49,335 nt of DNA from Microbacteriaceae bacterium PS02343. Lineage in GTDB: Bacteria; Actinomycetota; Actinomycetes; Actinomycetales; Microbacteriaceae. This document shows, piece by piece, positions 1-49,335 of this stretch. The stretch is from assembly GCA_029959365.1 (NCBI GenBank), contig JASCOA010000009.1, positions 1 to 49,335 of the forward strand. The letters run 5' to 3'. Under the pieces are notes generated by a model that had not been told where the DNA came from, ran no database searches, and saw only the letters and a program-made list of their open reading frames with translations. Positions within the stretch are counted from its first letter, which is position 1. The number at the start of each line of letters is the position of its first letter. Both the position numbers and the translations under genes were made by a program.

Positions 1-27
1 GATGCGCGGGGCCCGGCCCCGCGCATC
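1..27 (-). terminator. Hairpin downstream of the phosphohexomutase gene
   Basis: Perfect 11-bp inverted repeat: arm GATGCGCGGGG at 1-11 and its complement at 17-27, with a 5-base centre that can add one more pair. It lies 13 bases beyond the minus-strand stop codon at 40, where a terminator is expected. There is no clear U-tract, and the window starts here, so anything further downstream is unseen. The arm contains GATGC and the flank GCATCCGCTCG, parts of an octamer repeated through the window. Confidence 0.5.
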
Positions 28-39
28 CGCTCGCCGCAT

Positions 40-1764
40 TCAGCCCAGCGTCAGCAGGGGCCGCAGCGCCGCGTCGAGGGCGGCGACGACCGCATCCGCT
101 TCGGCGCGCGCGATGGCGGCGGTGGCGCCGCCGGCCTGCGCGTCGAGGTAGACCTTGAGCTTGGGCTCGGTGCCGCTGGGGCGCACGATGACGCGCGAGC
201 CGCCGGCGAGGCGGTAGCGCAGGATGTCGCTGGGCGGGAAGCCGTCGACGCCGAGACGGAAGTCGTCGATCGACTCGACCGCGATGCCGCCCAGCGAAGC
301 CGGCGGCTGCTTGCGCAGCCGGTCGGTGATCACGCCGATGTCGGCGAGGTCCGTCACGCGGATCGAGATCTGGCCCGAGGCGAAGGCGCCGAAGCGCTCC
401 GCGAGCGCGTCGAGCTGGTCGCCGAGCGTGCGCCCCGCGGCGTGCAGCTCGGCGACGAGGCCGACGAGCTCCACCGCGGCGGAGATGCCGTCCTTGTCGC
501 GCACCTTCGCGGGGTCGACGAGGTAGCCGAGCGCCTCCTCGAAGCCGTAGGCGAGATTCGGCACGCGGCTGACCCACTTGAAGCCGGTGAGGGTGTCCCG
601 GTAGGGCAGGCCGTAGGCGTCGGCGATCACCGAGAGGCCGGGGGAGGAGACGAGCGAGGCCGCGAGGGCGCCGCGCTCGCCGGAGGCCGAGAGACGGTCG
701 GCGGCACGCCAGCCCAGCAGCAGTCCGATCTCGTTGCCGGTGAGCCGATACCAGCCGGTCTCGGCGGTATCGGAGGGGATGGCGATGGCCAGCCGGTCCG
801 CATCCGGGTCGTTGGCGATGATGAGGCCGGCGCCGATGCGGGTCGCGGCGGCGTAGGCGAGGTCGAGCGCGCCCGGCTCCTCGGGGTTCGGGAAGGCGAC
901 CGTGGGGAAGGCGGCATCCGGCTCGATCTGCTCGGTGACCACATCCGGCGCCTGCAGGCCCGCGGCCTCGAAGACGGCGGCGACCGTCTCCCATCCGACG
1001 CCGTGCATGGCGGTGTAGAGGATGCGCGGGGTCGCCGTGGCCGTGCCGATGAGCGCGGCCGTCTGCTCGACGTAGGCGTCGACGACCTCCTGCGCGGCGA
1101 TCTCGTAGTCGTCGGAGCGCGGCAGCTCGAGCACGCTGACGCCCGCGGCGATGCGGTCGATGTGCGCCGCGATCTCGCCGTCGACGGGCGAGACGATCTG
1201 CGAGCCCTCGTCCTCGTCGCCGAGGTACACCTTGTACCCGTTGTCACGCGGCGGGTTGTGGCTGGCGGTGACCATGACGCCCGCGCTCGCACCGAGGTGG
1301 CGCACCGCGAAGGCGAGCACGGGGGTCGGCAGCGTGCGCGGCAGCAGCACGGCGCGGATGCCGGCGCCCGCGAAGATCTCGGCCGTGTCGCGCGCGAACA
1401 CCCGCGAGTTCGTGCGGCCGTCGTAGCCGATCACGATGCTGAGCGACCGCTCGTCACGGGCCTGCAGCCACGCGGCGAAGCCCGCCGCGGCCTGTCCGAC
1501 GAGCACGCGGTTCATGCGGTTCGGGCCGGCGCCGATCTCGCCGCGCAGGCCCGCGGTGCCGAAGGCGAGCCGCGATCCGAAGCGCGAGGAGAGCTCGTCG
1601 GCGGCCTCGGCGGAGCCCTTGAGCGCGTCGTCGACGATGGCGCCGAGCTCGCGACGGGTCACCTCGTCGGGGTCCTGCGCGAGCCAGGCCTTCGCCTCGC
1701 GGATGCGCTGGTCGAGCTGGCGGAAGTCGGTCGCCCCGCCGTCGGTGACCGAGTCGCCGGTCAC
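40..1764 (-). CDS. Phospho-sugar mutase (phosphoglucomutase/phosphomannomutase family)
   Basis: 574-residue alpha-D-phosphohexomutase, which interconverts hexose-6-phosphate and hexose-1-phosphate in the cytoplasm. All four family signatures are visible in order: the phosphoserine loop TASHNPPRDNGYKVY, the metal-binding loop DPDADR, the sugar-binding loop GFEEALGY and the C-terminal phosphate-binding RPSGTEPKLKVY. Length fits the large PgcA/ManB-like actinobacterial group. The GTG start overlaps the stop of the upstream purine nucleoside phosphorylase gene (GTGA), so the two are translationally coupled. Pairing a nucleoside phosphorylase with a phosphohexomutase also suggests pentose-1-phosphate handling: PNP releases ribose-1-phosphate, and some family members accept it. 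Glucose versus mannose versus ribose specificity cannot be read from the sequence. Confidence 0.93.
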   Translation of the reverse strand: MTGDSVTDGGATDFRQLDQRIREAKAWLAQDPDEVTRRELGAIVDDALKGSAEAADELSSRFGSRLAFGTAGLRGEIGAGPNRMNRVLVGQAAAGFAAWLQARDERSLSIVIGYDGRTNSRVFARDTAEIFAGAGIRAVLLPRTLPTPVLAFAVRHLGASAGVMVTASHNPPRDNGYKVYLGDEDEGSQIVSPVDGEIAAHIDRIAAGVSVLELPRSDDYEIAAQEVVDAYVEQTAALIGTATATPRILYTAMHGVGWETVAAVFEAAGLQAPDVVTEQIEPDAAFPTVAFPNPEEPGALDLAYAAATRIGAGLIIANDPDADRLAIAIPSDTAETGWYRLTGNEIGLLLGWRAADRLSASGERGALAASLVSSPGLSVIADAYGLPYRDTLTGFKWVSRVPNLAYGFEEALGYLVDPAKVRDKDGISAAVELVGLVAELHAAGRTLGDQLDALAERFGAFASGQISIRVTDLADIGVITDRLRKQPPASLGGIAVESIDDFRLGVDGFPPSDILRYRLAGGSRVIVRPSGTEPKLKVYLDAQAGGATAAIARAEADAVVAALDAALRPLLTLG

Positions 1765-2585
1765 AGCGTGCCCACGATCTTCGCGAGCAGCTCGCTGATG
1801 CGCCCCTCGGCCTCGCGGCCGGCCTCGAGCACCTCGGCGTGCGAGAGCGGGGTCTGCTGGATGCCCGCGGCGAGGTTGGTGATCAGCGAGAAGCCGAGCA
1901 CCTCCATGCCGGCCTCGCGCGCGGCGATGGCCTCGAGCGCGGTGGACATGCCGACGATGTGGCCGCCGAGCACCTTGGCCATCTGCACCTCGGCGGGGGT
2001 CTCGTAGTGCGGGCCGCGGAACTGCACGTAGACACCGTCGTCGAGCGTCGGGTCGACCTCGCGGGCGACGGCGCGCAGGCGGGCCGAGTAGAGGTCGGTG
2101 AGGTCGACGAAGGTCGCGCCCTCGAGGGGCGAGGCCGCGGTGAGGTTGAGGTGGTCGCTGATCAGCACGGGCTGCCCGGGCTTCCAGGTCGGCTTGATGC
2201 CGCCGGCGCCGTTGGTCAGCACCATGACCTTCGCGCCGGCCGCGGCGGCGGTGCGCACGGAGTGCACCACGCGGCGCACGCCGTGGTCCTCGTAGAAGTG
2301 GGTGCGCGCGCCGATGACGAGGGCGTGCTTGCCGCTCGGCAGCGCGATCGAGCGCAGGGTGCCGACGTGGCCGACGACGGCCGGCTTGCTGAAGCCGACG
2401 ATGTCGCCGGCGGGGATCTCGGCGACGGTCTCGCCGAGCAGGTCGGCGGCCTTGGCCCAGCCGCTGCCGAGGGTCAGCGCCACGTCGTGGTGCGCCACGC
2501 CGGTGCGCTCCGCGATCTGCGCGGCGGCCTCCTTCGCGATCTCGAAGGGGTCGGCTCCGGCGGCGTCGAGGGGATGCGTGCTCAT
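1761..2585 (-). CDS. Purine-nucleoside phosphorylase
   Basis: 274-residue trimeric-type purine nucleoside phosphorylase. It cleaves (deoxy)guanosine/inosine with phosphate to give the base and (deoxy)ribose-1-phosphate in purine salvage. Visible landmarks are the phosphate loop TLGSGW (residues 38-43), GARTHFYEDHG (92-102), TNGAGGI (124-130), GPHYETPAE with the base-binding Glu (191-199), GMSTALEAIAARE (212-224) and TNLAAGI with the purine-contacting Asn (236-242). Length is normal for the family. The start has no Shine-Dalgarno sequence, but TAGACT lies six bases upstream of the ATG, the geometry of a leaderless transcript. The stop overlaps the start of the phosphohexomutase gene, so the pair is an operon. 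Confidence 0.94.
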   Translation of the reverse strand: MSTHPLDAAGADPFEIAKEAAAQIAERTGVAHHDVALTLGSGWAKAADLLGETVAEIPAGDIVGFSKPAVVGHVGTLRSIALPSGKHALVIGARTHFYEDHGVRRVVHSVRTAAAAGAKVMVLTNGAGGIKPTWKPGQPVLISDHLNLTAASPLEGATFVDLTDLYSARLRAVAREVDPTLDDGVYVQFRGPHYETPAEVQMAKVLGGHIVGMSTALEAIAAREAGMEVLGFSLITNLAAGIQQTPLSHAEVLEAGREAEGRISELLAKIVGTL

Positions 2586-2591
2586 GCCGGG

Positions 2592-2597
2592 AGTCTA
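2592..2597 (-). promoter_or_regulatory. Likely -10 box of a leaderless promoter for purine-nucleoside phosphorylase
   Basis: TAGACT (minus strand) ends six bases before the ATG, so transcription would begin at or next to the start codon. No ribosome-binding site is present, which agrees with leaderless expression, common in actinobacteria. No good -35 hexamer is seen; the expected place is occupied by the hairpin at 2600-2640. Confidence 0.45.
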
Positions 2598-2599
2598 CG

Positions 2600-2640
2600 G
2601 GCGAGCGGATGCGCGGGGCGGGGCCCCGCATCCGCTCGCC
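2600..2640. repeat. Long inverted repeat between divergent genes
   Basis: Arm GGCGAGCGGATGC (2600-2612) and exact complement GCATCCGCTCGCC (2628-2640), enclosing a GC-only centre that can pair further. It lies between divergent start codons rather than behind genes, so it is not an obvious terminator. It overlaps the presumed -35 region of the purine-nucleoside phosphorylase promoter and could be an operator or a structured leader. The two arms carry head-to-head copies of the octamer GCGGATGC. Confidence 0.6.
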
Positions 2641-2716
2641 GTGTGCTTGTGAACAGCTCGTGACAGCCGCCGCCCCGGTTTGGCCGGGCCACCCCCGGCC
2701 CGGGATGATGGATGCC

Positions 2717-4156
2717 ATGGCTGACGTCTTCGATCGCAAGCACCGCATCGCCGTCCTGGGCGGCGGCCCCGGCGGCTACGAGGCGGCGCTCGCCGCGGCG
2801 CAGCTCGGCGCCGAGGTCACGCTGGTCGAGCGCACCGGCGTGGGCGGCAACGCCGTGATCACCGACGTCGTGCCCTCGAAGACCCTCATCGCCACGGCCG
2901 AGGCGACCAACGCGATCGGCGAGGCCGCCGACCTGGGCGTGCAGTTCTTCACCCGCGGCGAGAACGGCCGCGCCGTGCGCCCCGAGGTGACCGTCAACCT
3001 GCAGGCCGTCAACCAGCGCCTGCTGCGCCTCGCCCGCCAGCAGAGCGAGGACATGAAGTCGAACCTGATCCGCGCCGGCGTGCGCGTGGTGCAGGGGGAC
3101 GGCCGACTCGACGGCCCCAACCGCGTGATCGTCTCCGCCGGCCACGGCAGCAAGGCCACGGACTTCGACCAGGTCGACGCCGACACGATCATCGTGAGCG
3201 TGGGGGCGAGCCCCCGCGAGCTCGACAGCGCGAAGCCCGACGGCGAGCGCATCCTCACCTGGAAGCAGGTGTACGACATGGACGATCTGCCCGAGCACCT
3301 CATCGTCATCGGCTCGGGTGTGACCGGCGCGGAGTTCGCGAGCGCGTACCTGACGCTCGGCGCCAAGGTGACGCTGGTCTCGAGCCGCGACCAGGTGCTG
3401 CCCGGCGAGGACGAGGACGCCGCGCGCGTGCTCGAGTCGGTGCTGACCCGCAACGGCCTCAACCTGCTCGCCAAGAGCCGCGCCGACTCGGTCGTGCGCG
3501 ACGGCGACAAGGTCGTCGTCACCCTCAGCGACGGCCGCGTGCTCGAGGGCTCTCACGTGCTCATGGCCGTCGGCTCGATACCGAACACCGCCGGCATCGG
3601 CCTCGAGGAGGCGGGGGTGCAGCTCAACCCGAGCGGGCACATCCGCACCAACCGGGTCGCGCGCACCAGCGTGCCGAGCATCTACGCGGCCGGCGACTGC
3701 AGCGACGTGCTGCCCCTCGCATCCGTCGCCGCCATGCAGGGCCGCACGGCCGTGTTCCACGCCATGGGCGACGCGGTGCAGCCGATCGAGCTGCGCAACG
3801 TCTCGAGCAACATCTTCACGCAGCCCGAGATCGCCACCGTCGGCTGGACCCAGCGGCAGATCGAGGAGGGCATCGCCCAGGGCGAGATCTACAAGGTGCC
3901 GCTCTCGGCCAACCCCCGCGCCAAGATGCAGGGCATTAAGGACGGCTTCATCAAGCTCTTCGCGCGCACCGGCTCGGGCACCGTCATCGGCGGCGTCATC
4001 GTGGCCCCGCGCGCCTCGGAGCTCATCTACGCCATCACCCTCGCCGTCGAGCACCGCCTCACGGTCGACCAGGTCGCCGCGTCGTTCACCATCTACCCGT
4101 CCCTGACGGGCGCGATCGGCGAGGCCGCCCGGGCGATGCACCTGGTCAAGCACTGA
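2717..4156 (+). CDS. lpdA: NAD(P)H-quinone dehydrogenase, LpdA-like flavoprotein without redox disulfide
   Basis: 479-residue FAD/NAD-binding protein of the dihydrolipoamide-dehydrogenase fold. The FAD-binding GGGPGGYEAAL is near the N-terminus, the NAD-binding IVIGSGVTGAEFAS in the middle, and the second FAD motif AAGDCSDVLPLASVAAMQGR follows. The region that normally carries the CxxxxC disulfide reads GGNAVITDVVPSKT (43-56), and the C-terminal His-Glu pair of true lipoamide dehydrogenases is missing (IYPSLTGAIGEAAR). This matches the mycobacterial LpdA (Rv3303c) type, which reduces quinones rather than lipoamide. The start is uncertain: ATG 2705 is in frame four codons earlier and neither has a strong Shine-Dalgarno. 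Divergent from the nucleoside phosphorylase gene. Confidence 0.92.
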   Translation: MADVFDRKHRIAVLGGGPGGYEAALAAAQLGAEVTLVERTGVGGNAVITDVVPSKTLIATAEATNAIGEAADLGVQFFTRGENGRAVRPEVTVNLQAVNQRLLRLARQQSEDMKSNLIRAGVRVVQGDGRLDGPNRVIVSAGHGSKATDFDQVDADTIIVSVGASPRELDSAKPDGERILTWKQVYDMDDLPEHLIVIGSGVTGAEFASAYLTLGAKVTLVSSRDQVLPGEDEDAARVLESVLTRNGLNLLAKSRADSVVRDGDKVVVTLSDGRVLEGSHVLMAVGSIPNTAGIGLEEAGVQLNPSGHIRTNRVARTSVPSIYAAGDCSDVLPLASVAAMQGRTAVFHAMGDAVQPIELRNVSSNIFTQPEIATVGWTQRQIEEGIAQGEIYKVPLSANPRAKMQGIKDGFIKLFARTGSGTVIGGVIVAPRASELIYAITLAVEHRLTVDQVAASFTIYPSLTGAIGEAARAMHLVKH

Positions 4157-4181
4157 GGCCGGCACTGAGCGAGCGGATGGG

Positions 4182-4209
4182 CGTTCCGCGCGATACTGCG
4201 AACGGAACG
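4182..4209 (+). promoter_or_regulatory. Inverted repeat overlapping the probable promoter of the XRE-cupin gene
   Basis: CGTTCCG (4182-4188) and CGGAACG (4203-4209) form a 7-bp inverted repeat around a possible -10 sequence, GATACT (4192-4197), 30-60 bases before the regulator's start. A symmetric site straddling a promoter immediately upstream of a helix-turn-helix gene is the usual layout of an autoregulatory operator. This assignment is inference. Confidence 0.4.
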
Positions 4210-4238
4210 ACGAGCGGATGCGGGGACCGGTGCACGGC

Positions 4239-4865
4239 ATGACGGACGAACGAGCGGATGCGGCGCCCGCCAAGGAGCAGACCGAGGAGCAGACCGACCA
4301 GGGGCTCGAGCACGCGGTGGCGCGGCGGGTGCGGGTGCTCCGCACCGCGCGCGGCCTGAGCGCGGCGCAGCTCGCGGCCTCGGCGGGCATCTCGCCGGCG
4401 ATGGTGAGCCGCATCGAGTCGGCGTCGATCTCGTCGAGCCTGACGACGATCCAGCGGCTCGCCACGGCCCTGGAGGTTCCGGTCGCGTCGCTGTTCCGCG
4501 GCGCGGAGGCGCGCCCCAGCGCGATCGTGGTGCGCGACGGGCAGGGCGCGCCGGTGGTGCGCTCGGGCACCGCACGTGGTCACACGTACCGCTCGCTCGG
4601 CAGCATCCTGAGCGCCTCGGGCCCCTCGCTCGAGCCGCTCATGGTCGAGTTCTCGGCCGACGCGACCGAGCTGCCGATCTACGAGCACGCGGGCGTGGAG
4701 TTCCTGCTCATGCTCGACGGCGCGCTCGAGTACCAGCACGGCGACCGTCGCTGGGAGCTGCGCGCCGGCGACTCCGTGCTCCTCGACGCCGAGGCCCCGC
4801 ACGGTCCGGTGCGCGTCATCGAGCCCCCGGTGCGCTACCTGCTCGTCAACCCCGAGGGCATCTGA
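4239..4865 (+). CDS. XRE-family transcriptional regulator with C-terminal cupin domain
   Basis: 208-residue two-domain regulator. A Cro/C1-type helix-turn-helix spans about residues 27-82 (LRTARGLSAAQLAASAGISP and AMVSRIESASISSSLTTIQR). A single cupin beta-barrel spans about 125-200 (LPIYEHAGVEFLLMLDGALE, then LRAGDSVLLDAEAPHGP), which normally senses a small ligand. XRE-cupin proteins commonly control adjacent catabolic or transport genes. Here the gene precedes, on the same strand, an amidohydrolase-ABC importer-RidA set, so it is the best candidate for its regulator. ATG 4218 is an alternative start seven codons earlier; neither has a clear ribosome-binding site. The acidic, low-complexity first 20 residues are probably disordered. 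Confidence 0.88.
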   Translation: MTDERADAAPAKEQTEEQTDQGLEHAVARRVRVLRTARGLSAAQLAASAGISPAMVSRIESASISSSLTTIQRLATALEVPVASLFRGAEARPSAIVVRDGQGAPVVRSGTARGHTYRSLGSILSASGPSLEPLMVEFSADATELPIYEHAGVEFLLMLDGALEYQHGDRRWELRAGDSVLLDAEAPHGPVRVIEPPVRYLLVNPEGI

Positions 4866-4868
4866 GCG

Positions 4869-4890
4869 GAGCGGATGCGCGCATCCGCTC
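4869..4890. repeat. Perfect 22-bp palindrome after the regulator gene
   Basis: GAGCGGATGCG (4869-4879) is followed at once by its complement CGCATCCGCTC (4880-4890). It begins three bases after the regulator's stop codon, so a hairpin terminator is possible, although no U-tract follows. It consists of two head-to-head copies of the octamer GCGGATGC found throughout the window. Confidence 0.55.
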
Positions 4891-4948
4891 GTCGGCACTC
4901 GTCCGGCTTCCCTCGGGTCCGCTCCGCTCGCCCGAGCGCTCCGCTCGA

Positions 4949-5011
4949 CGTCGAGTTCCGGAGAACTGCTGTCTCGCGCGCCTCATGAGAGCAGATCTCC
5001 GGAACTCGACG
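4949..5011. repeat. 63-base near-perfect intergenic hairpin
   Basis: The arm CGTCGAGTTCCGGAGA (4949-4964) is exactly complementary to 4996-5011. Inside, after one A-A mismatch, CTGCT pairs with AGCAG; then, past a two-base bulge, CTC pairs with GAG, leaving a loop of about 11 bases (GCGCGCCTCAT). No T-run follows and there is no ORF across it. It is far longer and more structured than an operator or ordinary terminator. It lies between the XRE-cupin gene and the amidohydrolase. It could be a dispersed palindromic (REP-like) element, a structured RNA leader or a processing site; the sequence alone does not decide. Confidence 0.6.
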
Positions 5012-5106
5012 CCGGGGCGGCGGAGTAGCAGGGGCAGCGAGGGGTAGGAGGGGGCGAGCGGATGAACCCCAAGCACCCGCGTTACCTCCGCGAAACACGA
5101 CATCGT

Positions 5107-5119
5107 TTACTCTGAGTAA
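5107..5119 (+). promoter_or_regulatory. Palindromic operator/promoter upstream of the amidohydrolase
   Basis: TTACTC-T-GAGTAA is a perfect 13-bp palindrome 47 bases before the GTG start. It contains TACTCT, which fits the actinobacterial -10 pattern TAnnnT. A GTTAC half-site lies just upstream at 5081. The position suits an operator for the neighbouring XRE-cupin regulator, but it differs from the inverted repeat at 4182-4209. Binding by any protein is inferred only from symmetry and location. Confidence 0.4.
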
Positions 5120-5166
5120 CGCCCTTGCTTGATCGGCAAGGCGCGACACCCCTTGGAGCTACCCCA

Positions 5167-6375
5167 GTGAAACAGCAGTCCATCGAGCGCGTCCGTCTCT
5201 GGGACGGTCACCGCGACCTCGGCGTCGTCACCCTCGTGTGGCGCGGCGACGAGATCCTCGAGGTGCGCCCCGAGCCCGCCGGCACGGCGCACGACGACGA
5301 GCTGTCGATCATCCCCGGCCTCGTCGACACGCACGTGCACCTCGACGGCCACGCGGGCGAGAACCCTCCCGGCTGGCACTCCAACTGGTCGCTGGTCACG
5401 CCGCCCGAGGAGCTCGTCTTCCACATCGCCGCGAACGCCCAGAAGGCGATGCGCGCCGGCGTCACGACCCTGCGCGAGCTCGGCGGCGACGAGCGCCAGC
5501 TCGCCGTGAGCCGCGTGTTCGAGCAGGGCATCCAGGTCGGCCCGCGGCTCGTCGTGCACTGCCAGGTGGGCATGACCGCCGGGCACGGCGACCTCTTCAT
5601 CCCGCCGCAGTACCCGCACCGCCGGCCCGTCGCCGACAGCCCCGACGAGTGCCGCAAGCTCGTCCGCACGTGGGCCCGCAAGGGCGCCCACGGCATCAAG
5701 ATCCACGTGAGCGGCGGCGTGCTCTCGCAGGGCGACAAGGTCGGCTGGCGCAACCAGACGGTCGACGAGATCCGCACCACCATCGACGAGGCGCACGCGC
5801 TCGGCATGCCGGTCGCCGCGCACTCGCACAGCCAGCCCACCGCCAAGCTCGCGCTCGAGGAGGGCGTCGACTCGATCGAGCACGGCACCGGCCTCGACGC
5901 CGAGCTGTGGCCGGCCGCGGTCGCGGGCAACCTGCCGGTCGCCCCGACGCTGCTCATCAACGACCGCCTCGCCGACGGCACGATCCCGGTCGGCGACGAG
6001 GCGCGCGAGAAGGCGCTGGCCGTCGTCGCCGAGCGCGACGCGAACTTCGGCGGCGCGGCGGAGGCGGGCGTGCGCTTCGTGCTCGGCACCGACGCGAACG
6101 GCGTGATGGTGCAGTTCGGCGAGCAGCTCGACGAGACCCGTCGCATGCGCGACGTGTTCAGCTGGAGCGACGAGCGCACGCTCATCGCCGCCACCAGCGA
6201 CGCCGCGGCAGCGGTCGGGCTCGGCGACACCGTCGGCACCCTCGCCCCCGGCTTCGGCGCCGACTTCGTCCTCCTGCGCGGCAAGCCCTGGCAGCGCATC
6301 GAGGACCTCCGAGCGGATGCCATCGTCGCCGTCGTCAGCCGCGGCCGAGTCGTGCGCGGCGAGCTCCCGCAGTAA
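5167..6375 (+). CDS. Metal-dependent amidohydrolase, prolidase-like
   Basis: 402-residue amidohydrolase-superfamily TIM-barrel enzyme. The binuclear-metal ligand set is visible: HxH in VDTHVHLDGH (His56, His58), the probable carboxylated lysine in GIKIHVSGG (Lys178), His219 in AAHSHS, His239 in SIEHGTG and the catalytic Asp309 in LGTDAN. This set matches the prolidase-like/Xaa-dipeptidase and imidazolonepropionase-like branch, which hydrolyses C-N bonds of dipeptides and N-acyl amino acids. The GTG start was chosen because GGAG lies about nine bases upstream. The downstream importer is of the dipeptide/oligopeptide type, so a peptide or amide delivered by it is the likely substrate. The exact substrate is unknown. 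No signal peptide, so cytoplasmic. Confidence 0.85.
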   Translation: MKQQSIERVRLWDGHRDLGVVTLVWRGDEILEVRPEPAGTAHDDELSIIPGLVDTHVHLDGHAGENPPGWHSNWSLVTPPEELVFHIAANAQKAMRAGVTTLRELGGDERQLAVSRVFEQGIQVGPRLVVHCQVGMTAGHGDLFIPPQYPHRRPVADSPDECRKLVRTWARKGAHGIKIHVSGGVLSQGDKVGWRNQTVDEIRTTIDEAHALGMPVAAHSHSQPTAKLALEEGVDSIEHGTGLDAELWPAAVAGNLPVAPTLLINDRLADGTIPVGDEAREKALAVVAERDANFGGAAEAGVRFVLGTDANGVMVQFGEQLDETRRMRDVFSWSDERTLIAATSDAAAAVGLGDTVGTLAPGFGADFVLLRGKPWQRIEDLRADAIVAVVSRGRVVRGELPQ

Positions 6376-6521
6376 CCCCGACCCCCGCCCACGCCCGACG
6401 GCGCGCGTGACGGCGGTTCCGCATCCGCTGTTCCACCCCTGCGACGGATGCACGGCCCACGAGGCCGCACCCCCTCTGCACCACACAGCGCACCACCGAA
6501 CCCCTCGAGTAGGAATCCCGC

Positions 6522-8102
6522 ATGAACATCCCCCGCATCGCGCTCAGCGGCGTCGCCGCTGCCGGCGCCATCGCGCTGCTCGCCGGCTGCTCCGCCGGCG
6601 GCACCGGCACCGCGACCGACGGCACCCTCGTCTTCGCCGTCGAGACCGACCCCACCTGCATCGACCCGCAGCAGCCGAGCGTCACCCAGGCGCTGTACAT
6701 CGGGCGCCAGGTCGTCGACTCGCTCGTCGACCAGGACCCGGAGACCGGCGACTTCGTGCCGTGGCTCGCCGAGTCGTACGAGACCAACGACGACCTCACC
6801 GCGTACACCTTCACGCTGCGCGACGACGTCACCTTCAGCGACGGCACCGACCTGACCGCCGAGGTCGTGGCCGCCAACTTCGACGCCATCATCGCGATGG
6901 CCGCCGACGGCTCGACCGCGAGCCTCGCCAACCAGTACCTGGCCGGCTACGAGGGCACCACGGTCGCCGACGAGCAGACCTTCACGGTCGACTTCGCCGC
7001 CCCGAACGCCGCCTTCCTGCAGGGCGCGTCGACCATGAGTCTCGGCATCGTGAGCCAGGCGAGCACCGAGGCGACCCCCGACTCGCGCTGCCAGGACGGC
7101 GTCATCGGCACCGGCCCGTTCGTCTACGACGCGTACTCGCCCAACACCGAGGTCTCGATGGACAAGCGCGAGGGCTACGCCTGGGCGAGCGAACTGCGCG
7201 AGCACAGCGGCGACGCGTACCTCGAGCGCATCGAGTTCCCGGTCATCACGGAAGACAGCGTGCGCACCGGCGGCCTGCAGTCGGGCGAGTTCGATTTCAT
7301 CGGCGAGCTGCCGTACCTCGACGAGTCGCGCTTCGCCGCCGACTACGAGATCTACGCGGCCCCGAACCCGGGCGTGCCCACCAGCCTGATCCCGAACCTC
7401 ACCAACCCGGTGCTGGCCGACGACGCGGTGCGCCAGGCGCTGCAGCTCGGCATCGACCGCGAGGAGATCAACGAGACCCTGGGCTACTCGGGCGGCGACG
7501 TGCCCACGAGCGCGCTCAGCAGCGGCACCACCGGCTACGCGAGCCAGGCGGATGCGATGGGCTACGACGCCGAGGCCGCGATCGCGGCCCTCGAGGCGGC
7601 CGGCTGGGTCGAAGGCGCCGACGGCGTCCGCGAGAAGGACGGCGAGCGCCTCACCTTCACCGCGACCGGCTTCTACGAGCAGGAGATGATGGAGCTCATC
7701 CAGATCCAGCTGCTCGAGATCGGCGTGGACATGCAGATCGACTTCACCGACGCGGGCGGCTTCTTCGGCGCCATCGCGGACCGCTCGTACGACATGCTCT
7801 TCGCCGCGCTCACCCGCACCGACCCCGACGCTCTGCGCATCATGTTCTCGCAGGCGGCTCCGTCGCACTGGGCCGTGGTCGAGGACGCCGAACTCGAGTC
7901 GCTCGTCACCGAGCAGGCCGCGGCGGCCGACCCCGCCGAGCGCCAGGCGCTGCTCGACGACGCGCAGGCCCTCATCATCGAGAACGGCTACCTGTTCCCG
8001 ATCCTCGAGGTCTACCAGCTGCACGCGTCGCAGCCGGATGTCACGGGCTTCGCCTTCGACTCGGCGTCGCGCTTCCACCTCTACGACGTGCAGGCGGGCT
8101 GA
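6522..8102 (+). CDS. ABC importer substrate-binding lipoprotein, family 5 (peptide/nickel type)
   Basis: 526-residue extracytoplasmic solute-binding protein. It starts with a lipoprotein signal peptide whose lipobox LLAGC places the lipidated Cys at residue 23, anchoring it to the outer face of the membrane. The mature protein has the SBP_bac_5 pattern: LVFAVETDPTCIDPQQPSVT, an LAESYETNDDLTAYTFTLRD segment, VRQALQLGIDREEINE and a late YDMLFAALTRTDPDA. Length is typical. An AGGAA ribosome-binding site precedes the ATG. It is followed after 2 bases by the first permease gene, so the importer genes are one operon. The ligand is probably a short peptide or amide, judged only from family and context. 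Confidence 0.92.
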   Translation: MNIPRIALSGVAAAGAIALLAGCSAGGTGTATDGTLVFAVETDPTCIDPQQPSVTQALYIGRQVVDSLVDQDPETGDFVPWLAESYETNDDLTAYTFTLRDDVTFSDGTDLTAEVVAANFDAIIAMAADGSTASLANQYLAGYEGTTVADEQTFTVDFAAPNAAFLQGASTMSLGIVSQASTEATPDSRCQDGVIGTGPFVYDAYSPNTEVSMDKREGYAWASELREHSGDAYLERIEFPVITEDSVRTGGLQSGEFDFIGELPYLDESRFAADYEIYAAPNPGVPTSLIPNLTNPVLADDAVRQALQLGIDREEINETLGYSGGDVPTSALSSGTTGYASQADAMGYDAEAAIAALEAAGWVEGADGVREKDGERLTFTATGFYEQEMMELIQIQLLEIGVDMQIDFTDAGGFFGAIADRSYDMLFAALTRTDPDALRIMFSQAAPSHWAVVEDAELESLVTEQAAAADPAERQALLDDAQALIIENGYLFPILEVYQLHASQPDVTGFAFDSASRFHLYDVQAG

Positions 8103-8104
8103 CG

Positions 8105-9163
8105 ATGACACGGGCAGGAACGGCACTGCGGCTCGTCGCCCCGAAGGTGCTGCAGTTCGCCTTCGTGGTGTGGGCCACCTACACGGTGACGTTCCTGCTC
8201 GTGCGCGTGCTGCCGGGCGACCCCGTGCTCGCCGCGCTCGCCGTGCAGAGCGGCGACGCGACCACGGTCGACCCCGAGCAGCTCGCGGCGCTGCGCGAGC
8301 AGGCGGGCCTCGACGGCTCGCTGCTCGAGCAGTACCTCAGCCAGCTGGGCGCCCTGCTGACGGGCGACCTCGGCACCTCCCTGGCCACCGGTCGCACGGT
8401 GGTCGACATGATCGCGGGCGTCGTGCCCGGCTCCCTCGCGGTGGCCGGGCTGGCGCTCGTGATCGGCGTGCTCACCTCGGTGGTGCTCGCGTTCCTCGCC
8501 TCGATCGCCCCCTGGCGCTGGCTGCGCGACCTGCTCGTGCAGCTGCCGCCGCTGGGCGTGGCGGTACCCGCGTTCGTGACGGGCCTCATCCTCATCTCGG
8601 TGTTCTCGTTCTCGCTCGGGCTGCTGCCCGCCTCCGGCTCCCGCAGCGGCGACAGCGTGATCCTGCCCGCCATCACGCTGGCCTTCCCGGTCGGCGCCAT
8701 CTTCTTCCAGGTCTTCATCACGGCGATCCGCGAGGCGGAGGCGAGCGGATACGTCTTCACGGCCGAGGCGAAGGGCCTCGGCCGGGCGGCGGTGTTCGGC
8801 CGGCACGTGCTGCGCAACGCGCTGCTGCCCTCGGTGACCAGCATCGGCCTGCTCATCGGCTACCTCGCCGGCGGCACCGCGGTCGTCGAGACCGTCTTCT
8901 CACGCGAGGGCATCGGACGCCTCGTCGTCTCGGCCGTGCTCGCGCGCGACGTCTCGGTCATCCAGGGCGTCATCATCGTCGTGGCCGTGGTCTACGCGCT
9001 GGCGGCCCTGCTGGTCGATCTGTCGTACCCGCTCATCGACCCGCGCCTGCGCCCCGGCAAGGCTGCGCCGAAGCCGGCCGCCGCATCGACCTTCTCGATC
9101 GTCCCCGAAGCGGATGCGCTGACGAGCGCGACGACCGATCCGAAGAACGGAGCCGCGAAGTGA
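8105..9163 (+). CDS. ABC importer permease, DppB/OppB type
   Basis: 352-residue integral membrane permease with about six transmembrane helices. The first (LQFAFVVWATYTVTFLLVRV) is followed by the family-typical LPGDPVLA. The cytoplasmic EAA loop that docks on the ATPase is visible around EAEASGYVFTAEAKGLGRAA. The C-terminal ~35 residues (from about PGKAAPKPAAASTF) are an unusual Ala/Thr-rich polar tail beyond the last helix. The gene starts 2 bases after the binding-protein stop, and its own stop overlaps the GTG start of the next permease, giving tight operon coupling. Confidence 0.92.
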   Translation: MTRAGTALRLVAPKVLQFAFVVWATYTVTFLLVRVLPGDPVLAALAVQSGDATTVDPEQLAALREQAGLDGSLLEQYLSQLGALLTGDLGTSLATGRTVVDMIAGVVPGSLAVAGLALVIGVLTSVVLAFLASIAPWRWLRDLLVQLPPLGVAVPAFVTGLILISVFSFSLGLLPASGSRSGDSVILPAITLAFPVGAIFFQVFITAIREAEASGYVFTAEAKGLGRAAVFGRHVLRNALLPSVTSIGLLIGYLAGGTAVVETVFSREGIGRLVVSAVLARDVSVIQGVIIVVAVVYALAALLVDLSYPLIDPRLRPGKAAPKPAAASTFSIVPEADALTSATTDPKNGAAK

Positions 9164-19036: not shown

Positions 19037-20638
19037 TCAGCGAGAGGGCTGGCGCAGCAGCCCGGCGATCTCGCGCCGGCTGCGCAGCCCGAGCCGTTCG
19101 AGCGCGTTGGCCACGTGGAAGTCGACCGTGCGCTTCGAGAGGAAGAGCTCCTCGGCGATCTGCGCGCTCGTACGCCCCTCGGCCACGAGCAGTGCGATCC
19201 GTCGCTGCTGCGCCGTGAGCGCCCGCAGCACGTCCGGCACAGCCGGAGCGCGCCGTCGGGCCGCGGCGATGGCCTCGTCGCAGTTGGCGACGAGCTCGTG
19301 CGCCCCGAAGCCCAGCAGCGCCGAGCGGGCGGTCTCGAGCGAGGCGATGCCCGTCGCCGCGTCGCCGAGGCGCGTCTCGACGAGGCCGTGCACGTAGCGC
19401 ACCCAGGCGCGCCCGAGCGGATCGTCGGTGCTGCGCACGCCGGCGAGCATCCGCTCTGCCGCGTCCACCGCCGTGGCGTCGCCGTCGAGCATGCGCAGCA
19501 GCGCCTCGTGCGACCAGTAGTAGGCGCTCTCCGCCGCGCCGGGCTCGCCGCCCCACTCGGTCACGAGCTGCCGCAGGCGTGCGTCGGAGCCTGAGAGCCG
19601 CAGCGCCAGCGCGTGCAGGCACAGCCACTCGTGCCGCGAGTACAGCCGCCGGTAGCCGGGCTGATCCTCGCTCTCGATCAGCTGCAGCAGCACCTGCCCG
19701 TCGTCGGCACTGATCGCCAGCAGCATGCGCGCGTGCAGCAGCGCGGTCTCGGCCACGAGGCTGCGGCGCTCGGTCAGCGCCGCGCGCGCCTCGAGGATCC
19801 GCAGCTCGGCGAGGCGCCGCTCACCGGCGAGCACGGGCTGCAGCGCCCGCATTGACGAGCGGATGCTGCGCATCGTCAGAGCGGATGCATCGCCCAGCAT
19901 CCGCTCCACCGAGCGCGCCTCCAGCGCGGCCCCGTGCCAGTCGCCGTGCCGGTAGCGCGCGAGCGCCAGCTCGGCCTTGGTGGCGGCGAGCCGCGAGGCG
20001 GCGCGCTGGGGGATGAGCCGCACCGCCTGCGCCAGGTCATTGCCCGCCCGGTTCCAGTCACCGAGGCCGGCGAAGACCCGGCCCGTGGCGACGAGCGCGA
20101 GCGCGTGGCCACGGTCGAGCCGGTGCAGCTGCCGCGGCCCCGCGAGCGCCTCGCGCAGCAGCTCGAAGTGCTCGAGCGACTGCGCCGTGTGCCACGCCAC
20201 GAGCGCCCGCGCCCCGGTGGCGTCGAACCACTCGACCGAGCCGGCCTCGGCGTCGAGATGGCCGTCGAAGCGGGCCGCGGCATCCCAGAGCGCCAGGTCG
20301 GCCAGCCGCCAAACCATGGCGACGGCGATGGCCGCGGCGGTCCCCGGCGCCTCGGCGCGCAGCTGCTCGAGCGCTCGGAGCAGCGCCTGCTCGTCGTGGC
20401 CCGTGCGCAGTGCGATCAACGCGTAGGCCGTGCGCCGCCAGGGCCCGTCGGGCAGTCGACTGAGGCTCGGCAGGTGCTCGTCGAGCAGCACGGCGTCGTC
20501 GTCGCGCGCCTCCAGCTCGAGCAGCGCCGCGAGCCCCTCGAGGTCGCCGCTGCGCAGCACCGCCTCGGTGAGTTCAGCCCAGCGCCCGGCCGCCCACGCC
20601 TCCGCGCCGATGCGCTGGAGGGGGTTGGCGGCGGGCAC
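19037..20638 (-). CDS. LuxR-type transcriptional regulator, paralogue of the 15647-17329 protein
   Basis: 533-residue protein with a C-terminal GerE/LuxR helix-turn-helix at about 474-533 (LTAQQRRIALLVAEG, TSAQIAEELFLSKRTVDFHV, ALERLGLRSRREI). The N-terminal ~470 residues are a helical-repeat region with no visible nucleotide-binding motif. It matches the 560-residue regulator in length, order of segments and HTH sequence (EGxTSAxIAxxLFLSKRT), so the two are duplicates. The GTG start lacks a ribosome-binding site, and TAATCT ends six bases upstream, overlapping the ugd stop; leaderless expression is likely, with possible read-through from ugd. The ligand and targets are unknown. Confidence 0.85.
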   Translation of the reverse strand: MPAANPLQRIGAEAWAAGRWAELTEAVLRSGDLEGLAALLELEARDDDAVLLDEHLPSLSRLPDGPWRRTAYALIALRTGHDEQALLRALEQLRAEAPGTAAAIAVAMVWRLADLALWDAAARFDGHLDAEAGSVEWFDATGARALVAWHTAQSLEHFELLREALAGPRQLHRLDRGHALALVATGRVFAGLGDWNRAGNDLAQAVRLIPQRAASRLAATKAELALARYRHGDWHGAALEARSVERMLGDASALTMRSIRSSMRALQPVLAGERRLAELRILEARAALTERRSLVAETALLHARMLLAISADDGQVLLQLIESEDQPGYRRLYSRHEWLCLHALALRLSGSDARLRQLVTEWGGEPGAAESAYYWSHEALLRMLDGDATAVDAAERMLAGVRSTDDPLGRAWVRYVHGLVETRLGDAATGIASLETARSALLGFGAHELVANCDEAIAAARRRAPAVPDVLRALTAQQRRIALLVAEGRTSAQIAEELFLSKRTVDFHVANALERLGLRSRREIAGLLRQPSR

Positions 20639-49259: not shown

Positions 49260-49335
49260 CCCCCCCCCCCGCCGGGGGGGGGGGGGGGGGGGGGGGTTGG
49301 GCGTTGTTTTTGGGGGGGCGCGGGGGGCCCGCGGG
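49260..49335. other. Low-complexity homopolymer tail, probable sequencing or assembly artefact
   Basis: An 11-base C run begins at 49260, then GCC, then an uninterrupted G run of more than 20 bases, then T- and G-rich sequence to the end. Nothing comparable occurs elsewhere in the window. It resembles poly-G dark-cycle calls or a collapsed contig end rather than natural sequence. Confidence 0.8.

Follow-up and report, generated by a model that had tools for sequence, protein, structure and literature searches.

The hairpin at 4949-5011 belongs to a dispersed, REP-like family of 63-bp palindromes. We favor, with somewhat better than even confidence, the reading that this palindrome once spread as a discrete unit, has been kept behind genes and most likely acts as a two-way hairpin at transcript ends. 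The window, meaning the whole stretch of DNA analyzed, comprises 49,335 nucleotides from Microbacteriaceae bacterium PS02343. Four genomes are compared below: the window's own genome (G000), a congener (G001), a genome of another genus in the window's family (G133) and the Nocardioidaceae metagenome-assembled genome JAURVT (G322).

A 63-bp hairpin between a regulator gene and an amidohydrolase-like gene

The hairpin and its surroundings consist of the following features (R1 and R2 are the covariance models described below).

4230..4865, plus strand: upstream gene for an HTH + cupin regulator, with either 4218 or 4230 as its start and a distance of 83 nt from its 3' end to the hairpin
4869..4890, no strand: perfect 22-nt palindrome GAGCGGATGCGCGCATCCGCTC, between the regulator stop and the hairpin and outside the 63-bp family
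4949..5011, no strand (palindromic): 63-bp palindrome, the window copy of the family, scoring 72.9 bits with R1 and 67.6 bits with R2
4949..4964, plus strand: outer left arm, 16 bp, perfect, CGTCGAGTTCCGG
4966..4994, plus strand: variable core, with a 5-bp inner stem (4966-4970 / 4990-4994), then more pairs and the loop
4996..5011, plus strand: outer right arm, reverse complement of the left arm at 4949..4964
5167..6375, plus strand: downstream gene, amidohydrolase-like, starting about 155 nt beyond the hairpin

The hairpin is real, because none of 200 shuffles folded as well on either strand (z-scores of -6.5 and -7.5; RNA folding energies of -53.1 and -56.5 kcal/mol for the two strands of the 81 nt around it). 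It ranked first among 54 inverted repeats with at most 60 nt between their copies, with 28-nt arms that are 89% complementary; one other repeat had longer arms, yet only 74% complementarity. An initial sequence-only reading had described 63 bases at these positions in which a perfect outer stem of 16 bp is followed by one mismatch and by an inner stem and loop, with no T-run; we recovered all of this. Its bulge and 11-base loop held in part. The bulge does occur, though in the minus-strand fold. On the plus strand, an A.A mismatch separates the 16 outer pairs from 5 inner ones, a G.G mismatch separates these from 2 further pairs, and the loop has 13 nt. The distance from the regulator stop (4863-4865) had been given as 138 bases and is 83. 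The palindrome begins with CGTCGAG and ends with CTCGACG, and its terminal CGTC and GACG are paired with each other.

For the product of 5167..6375, the top NCBIfam match was Xaa-Pro dipeptidase, under the cut-off of that family, and the protein is 97% identical to its ortholog in the congener. The 22-nt palindrome at 4869-4890 is also found there, with 20 of its 22 bases.

The palindrome is multicopy and nearly constant in length

We used 81 bases as a BLAST query against the own genome, a draft of 239 contigs, and obtained matches that were weak yet spanned almost its whole length. The pattern GAGTTCCGG-N-CCGGAACTC occurred at six places per strand, each exactly 55 bases end to end, and its reversed control had no match in this genome. 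Together with one place carrying 1 mismatch, these make five distinct copies in all, since C12/C38 and C193/C225 each represent a single hairpin inside which the assembly broke, leaving two contig ends. Each pair was counted once on the strength of the letters that its two ends share in hairpin and flank, C38 and C12 being one base apart. Contig breaks fall in two of the five copies, and hairpins of this kind may bias short-read genomes. The outer arms of the own-genome copies are nearly identical, CGTCGAGTTCCGG being common to all with the exception of bases 2-3 of some arms, and the cores differ and are still largely paired.

A pattern scan of a large genome collection returned at least 117 stretches, mostly of other lengths and many, by eye, without long pairing arms; it included three JAURVT loci with identical 55-base spacing, and these were used. 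Covariance model R1 was built from 5 + 3 copies and R2 from 32 copies. R1 matched, at an E value of 0.01, 31 of 299 genomes of the family, the own genome and some weak matches resembling chance (e.g., L194, L196 and L197) included, and R2 matched 12 of 394 genomes of the class, again with the own genome; the distribution of the family is therefore patchy. The R2 census counted 24 sites each in G133 and G322, 20 in G001 and 5 in the own genome. All of these counts are lower bounds set by the number of candidates scored per genome (17 for R1 in the family scan; 150 in the census and 13 in the class scan for R2). A further G322 copy outside the census (L305 2979-3041) has a third arm type. The earlier suggestion of a dispersed REP/MITE-like element is thus borne out by at least 5 own copies, 20 to 24 copies in each of three other genomes, a best register of 63 nt in 58 of 72 census copies (61 to 65 nt in the remainder) and mostly tandem or convergent placement.

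The pairing has been retained as the sequence changed. The 32-copy alignment (A4), whose members were picked ahead of the census and make up 32 of its 73 sites, has 63 columns, 26-base arms and an 11-base loop, and its sole gap is a base lost at a contig end. Both sides have changed in 18 of the 26 pairs, and the covariation score was 0.475, compared to 0.165 for shuffled alignments (0 of 500 as high) and at most 0.121 when the partner was slid. Covariance modeling of homologs had been proposed for this hairpin, along with the view that a single-copy, unconserved sequence without compensatory changes would speak against it; the palindrome is instead multicopy, kept between species and changed on both sides of its pairs.

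The foot CGTCGA, the length and the pairing are common to the copies of all genomes. End pairs 1 to 4 form in 29/31, 24/32, 29/32 and 30/32 copies of A4, respectively, and the foot is weak at its first three bases in G133, where these form Watson-Crick pairs in only 38 to 58% of copies. Bases 10-13, counted over both arms, are genome specific: CCGG in 9/10 cases in G000, GCCG in 33/40 in G001, GCCC in 41/48 in G133 and CCGN in 46/46 in G322, which carries two arm types, TTCCGGCTCAGTTACC and TTCCGCGTCATCG. The cores vary among copies and are mostly paired nonetheless. Single arms did not fold above shuffles in three genomes (mean z of -0.16 for 10 arms, -0.57 for 26 and -0.42 for 32), and we rejected a REPIN, a palindrome within a palindrome, on this result.

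Copies lie mostly behind genes

We placed 72 of the 73 census sites (all except G322 site C46) relative to genes called with a simple, crude codon-bias caller. Tandem gaps held 36 copies, convergent gaps 26 and divergent gaps 4; 4 copies were inside a predicted gene and 2 were undecided. After five duplicates in a G001 array were dropped, the four genomes had 24 convergent, 33 tandem and 4 divergent copies. The background of gaps of at least 20 nt, taken from G322 and G133 only and with the copies still included, was 32 convergent, 151 tandem and 43 divergent. With the four genomes pooled, convergent gaps held more copies than expected from this background (odds ratio, 3.9; p = 4e-5), and divergent gaps held fewer (odds ratio, 0.30; p = 0.019). 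The convergent enrichment rests on one genome, G322 (odds ratio by itself, 14.8; p = 5e-7), and was not significant in G133 by itself (odds ratio, 2.2; p = 0.14); divergent depletion was not significant in either genome taken singly. The median distance to the nearest stop was 16 nt in G322, 27 nt in G133, 98.5 nt in G000 and 189 nt in G001, and 6 of 23 G322 copies overlap a gene end, with the stop codon within the hairpin foot. The flanking genes are unrelated among copies, the commonest Pfam family accounting for 4 of 107 flanking proteins.

The lengths of the gaps bear on how the copies arrived. Convergent G322 gaps with a copy match the background once 63 nt are subtracted (p = 0.90) and differ from it in total length (p = 0.02), which is what the addition of a 63-bp unit to ordinary gaps would produce. 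Convergent G133 gaps resemble them, with p = 0.70 after subtraction and 0.10 in total (n = 5). Tandem gaps were less clear in G322 (p = 0.10 after subtraction and 0.02 in total; n = 4), and those with a copy in G133 exceeded the background even minus 63 nt (p = 0.0002).

According to our preferred reading, a palindrome of nearly fixed 63 bp would have spread earlier as a discrete unit, both within the family of the window and in one or more Nocardioidaceae lineages, and copies would have been retained where they had landed downstream of genes, chiefly where two genes converge. In such gaps the two strands give the same hairpin, which most likely ends and/or protects transcripts coming from either side, in the manner of REP elements and of terminators without a U-tract. 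A role at transcript ends is probable; we favor it because the copies sit behind genes and are symmetric where two genes converge, and because of the behavior of REPs described in the passages cited here from Di Nocera et al. 2013 (PMC3733652).

The hairpin is not followed by the T-run of a canonical intrinsic terminator: no T-run or terminator-like site was found in 4000-6500, and none of 143 outward flanks of copies had 5 T in 8 bases.

Searches for a mobilizing enzyme, insertion marks and strand bias

Past mobility is our inference; neither an enzyme nor a clear target duplication was found for it. The Y1 transposase profile PF01797, which matched in 5 of 14 control genomes, had no match in the own genome or the congener, and a RAYT-linked REP was rejected because this transposase is absent from these two genomes. 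No transposase was present among the 25 commonest Pfam families of the flanking proteins (107 of 117 proteins). A search of 65 copies for target-site duplications with k of 2 to 9 gave no clear case and no excess at the border itself; with the border shifted 1 to 2 bases inward, there were small excesses at k of 4 (3 versus 0.9 and 6 versus 2.5), which the foot sequence may cause. With the window copy as the query, no copy was found in phage records. Plasmids likewise had no copy, with weak partial matches in 5 records: 2 of Methylobacterium with 21 identical bases (E = 0.6) and 3 of Streptomyces atratus in which part of the query matched at 78.6% (E = 0.04). No copy was found in viral contigs, 18 of which contained a 16-mer; R2 found nothing at an E value of 0.01 in the stretches of these contigs that it scanned. 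We also set aside an integron attC-like site by reasoning only, as the conserved triplets are oppositely oriented relative to the attC consensus and no cassette arrays were seen.

We found no excess of G.U over A.C on the transcribed strand: counted in transcript sense, there were 45 G.U and 47 A.C in the tandem and own-genome copies, and 31 and 43, respectively, in a cleaned set of 30 copies (p = 0.20). The palindrome may therefore be kept at the DNA level, decaying or repaired as a palindrome. The result counts against a purely RNA-level role, which would predict an excess.

Sites are kept between congeners and outer arms appear to have changed together

The congener is syntenic with the own genome: positions 1-8188 of the window align to G001 L212 8995-1, with main blocks that are 89 to 94% identical (82 to 91% at other loci). 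We compared four own copies with G001, leaving out the fifth (C193/C225), and each of the four has a 63-nt hairpin between the same genes in the congener.

Window copy: ortholog L212 3511-3573, chosen by alignment, as a second hairpin adjoins in G001
Own copy C176: ortholog L215 3415-3477, between aztB and an AztD-like gene
Own copy C111: ortholog L214 3513-3575, behind a GntR-type regulator
Own copy C12/C38: ortholog L213 14611-14673, 5 nt from an SDR stop in both species

Much of the intergenic sequence flanking these kept copies has diverged. Copies at places where G000 has none were found in G001 at L212 3659, at L212 6223 and in a 175-bp tandem array at L213 12601-13013. Among the 46 pairs that differ between orthologs, 16 show a change in each partner and pair in either species, 7 show a change in one partner and 23, mostly in the core, are unpaired in one species.

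These comparisons bear on a reading that we consider rather unlikely, in which the palindrome is a selfish miniature element of the MITE or REP kind without a host function and its placement reflects insertions purged from genes and promoters. The patchy distribution, the three congener-only places, the absence of a G.U excess and the half of differing ortholog pairs that are unpaired in one species would all suit such an element. It accounts less well for the four of four comparable copies kept between the same genes despite flank divergence, with paired changes in their outer arms, or for the convergent enrichment in G322, which goes beyond mere promoter avoidance.

Over the outer 16 bp, copies within a genome are 0.88 and 0.85 identical, compared to 0.74 for orthologs, a value equal to that of non-orthologs. 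Pairs 10/54 and 12/52 were swapped in all four ortholog pairs with pairing kept, in one case as G.U. In permutation tests on the four ortholog pairs, the outer arms were without ortholog signal (p = 0.87), and the stretch 17-47 retained a weak one (p = 0.017; the loop by itself gave p = 0.054 and the full 63 bases gave p = 0.087). The simplest reading of these sequences is that the sites share ancestry and that their outer arms have changed in concert; alternatively, species-own variants may have repeatedly replaced copies at the same places. The concerted arm change is the surprising part of this analysis.

One account of it, also unlikely in our view, is that the palindrome serves a host trans-acting factor, protein or RNA, as a site of binding or processing, and that its outer arms follow this factor, whose specificity differs between species. 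Such a factor would read the 13- to 16-bp foot of the extruded or transcribed hairpin and perhaps gauge its length, with the copies changing together. This would fit the greater likeness of paralogs than of orthologs, the swapped and still paired positions, the genome-specific bases 10-13 and the confinement of ortholog signal to the stretch 17-47. On the other hand, we found no candidate factor, two or three arm types stand side by side in G322, and gene conversion or repeated replacement could yield the same pattern; the comparison comprises only four ortholog pairs, with the p values given above for the loop and for all 63 bases, and in the C111 pair the core fits better in the reversed orientation.

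We also put forward, tentatively, a broader formulation: the palindromes would form a family whose length is measured and whose foot, though the sites are scattered, evolves in concert through a host factor or a homogenizing process. Nearly all copies within a genome share paired arm bases that differ from those of their orthologs, so a host factor or homogenizing process may read the foot and tie the copies together. If true, the family would stand apart from GTAG and CGTC REPs as a system of its own. A near-fixed 63-bp kind that two species share in site yet that has species-wide arms would offer a testable case for how dispersed repeats stay alike, with transposition, gene conversion and a reading factor as candidate processes.

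Other hairpins behind genes and the case for a structured RNA

Long palindromes, mostly of other sequence, were present in 9 of 17 convergent background gaps of at least 40 nt in G133 and in 1 of 8 in G322. These would be compatible with an ordinary terminator hairpin that evolved in place for each gene, the likeness of copies being coincidental. We regard this as improbable, given the arms shared at unlinked loci, the near-identical length, the matches of one model across genomes and the lack of a T-run; the other palindromes behind genes, moreover, vary in length and sequence. The shared sequence largely refutes an origin in place.

Structured RNA had been the other suggestion of the sequence-only reading and, in the sense of an RNA made from one strand, is not supported. 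A riboswitch or sRNA of the amidohydrolase, or another such RNA acting in cis or in trans, is highly improbable, since, although both-side changes of pairs would be expected of it, no Rfam family matched in the window at the gathering score (two relaxed hits were microRNA families far below threshold), the neighboring genes are unrelated, the copies are mostly behind genes and the G.U and A.C counts reveal no strand asymmetry.

Relation to known palindromic repeats

In the passages cited from PMC3733652, most REPs are sorted into GTAG and CGTC kinds with short stems. The CGTC-tagged REPs described there have an unpaired CGTC tag, stems of 8 to 9 bp and loops of 4 to 5; these palindromes are dispersed, occupy mostly tandem or convergent positions close to the 3' ends of genes and have no associated transposase. 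Convergent CGTC REPs of S. wittichii are mostly at most 20 bp from both ORF ends, and Actinobacteria are absent from the five phyla that those passages list for CGTC repeats. The 63-bp palindromes are similarly dispersed, tandem or convergent (62 of 72), near gene 3' ends and with no associated transposase found, and their foot starts with CGTC. They differ from the CGTC REPs as described in these passages in that CGTCGA is mostly paired and in their 26-base arms and 11-nt loop.

With GTAG REPs and REPINs, the family shares dispersed, inverted copies behind genes, conserved ends, a variable middle and an end that can hold a stop codon (according to PMC3733652, the ends of GTAG REPs can supply the stop codon of an ORF). 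Unlike these, it has no GTAG foot, no self-folding single arms and, in two genomes, no Y1 transposase. We set the family apart from both kinds because their defining features were tested and are absent from it. The passages also name REP-like repeats without an end motif in M. tuberculosis and D. radiodurans; the 63-bp family likewise has no GTAG- or CGTC-type terminal motif and is likened to these by description only. REP-like repeats in the same phylum are thus already known from the motif-less ones of M. tuberculosis (PMC3733652).

MITEs with terminal inverted repeats are also noncoding units whose length hardly varies, whose ends are conserved and which come in lineage-specific variants, but the 63-bp family is palindromic throughout and has no clear target-site duplication, and no related transposase or IS end turned up in the sequences surveyed, the 25 commonest Pfam families of the flanking proteins among them. 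Intrinsic terminators without poly-U, as described in the passages cited from PMC8355165, resemble it as GC-rich hairpins behind a stop that are symmetric between convergent genes; unlike the palindrome, terminators are not a single sequence family of a single length. Literature searches, confined to one library of papers, returned no report of the 63-bp family. We file it as a variant of the broad kind "dispersed extragenic palindrome," REP-like in placement.

Additional repeats and sequence features

Several other repeats were observed in these genomes. At L293 3073-3747 in the congener, four copies of the palindrome recur with a 204-bp period as a local tandem array. A second dispersed motif in the window, the 10-mer GAGCGGATGC, has 20 occurrences, compared to 0.45 expected, several of them as inverted pairs; its places include 2603-2637, 4869-4890 and 19857-19906. 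Poly-G or poly-C runs at contig ends (window 49261-49335; C193 and C182) are probably a sequencing artifact.

G133 contains another dispersed family of 60- to 64-nt palindromes, of the GAACCG(C/A)GTTCCGAACCATGAACCGCG type (L282 6288-6347, L284 5127-5186 and L315 15890-15953), and a further one of the CGACGCGARAGCGACGAACYTCCG type, 58 to 60 nt long (L316 14075-14132 and L323 777-836), with one member in a convergent gap and one in a tandem gap. A short palindrome, GAGTTCCGGAGAACTC, overlaps the stop codon of a gene whose translation looks flagellin-like by eye, in the same way in G000 (L008 around 1501, at the end of C182) and in the congener (L153 around 1501), and the G000 contig runs into poly-G just behind it. 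We rejected it as a half copy of the 63-bp palindrome, as it is not 63 nt long and its sequence is identical in both species. Finally, GAGTTCCGG...CCGGAACTC hairpins of other lengths, possibly related families, occur in Brevibacterium (L087, L105, L113 and L199) and Amycolatopsis (L117, L120, L139 and L148).
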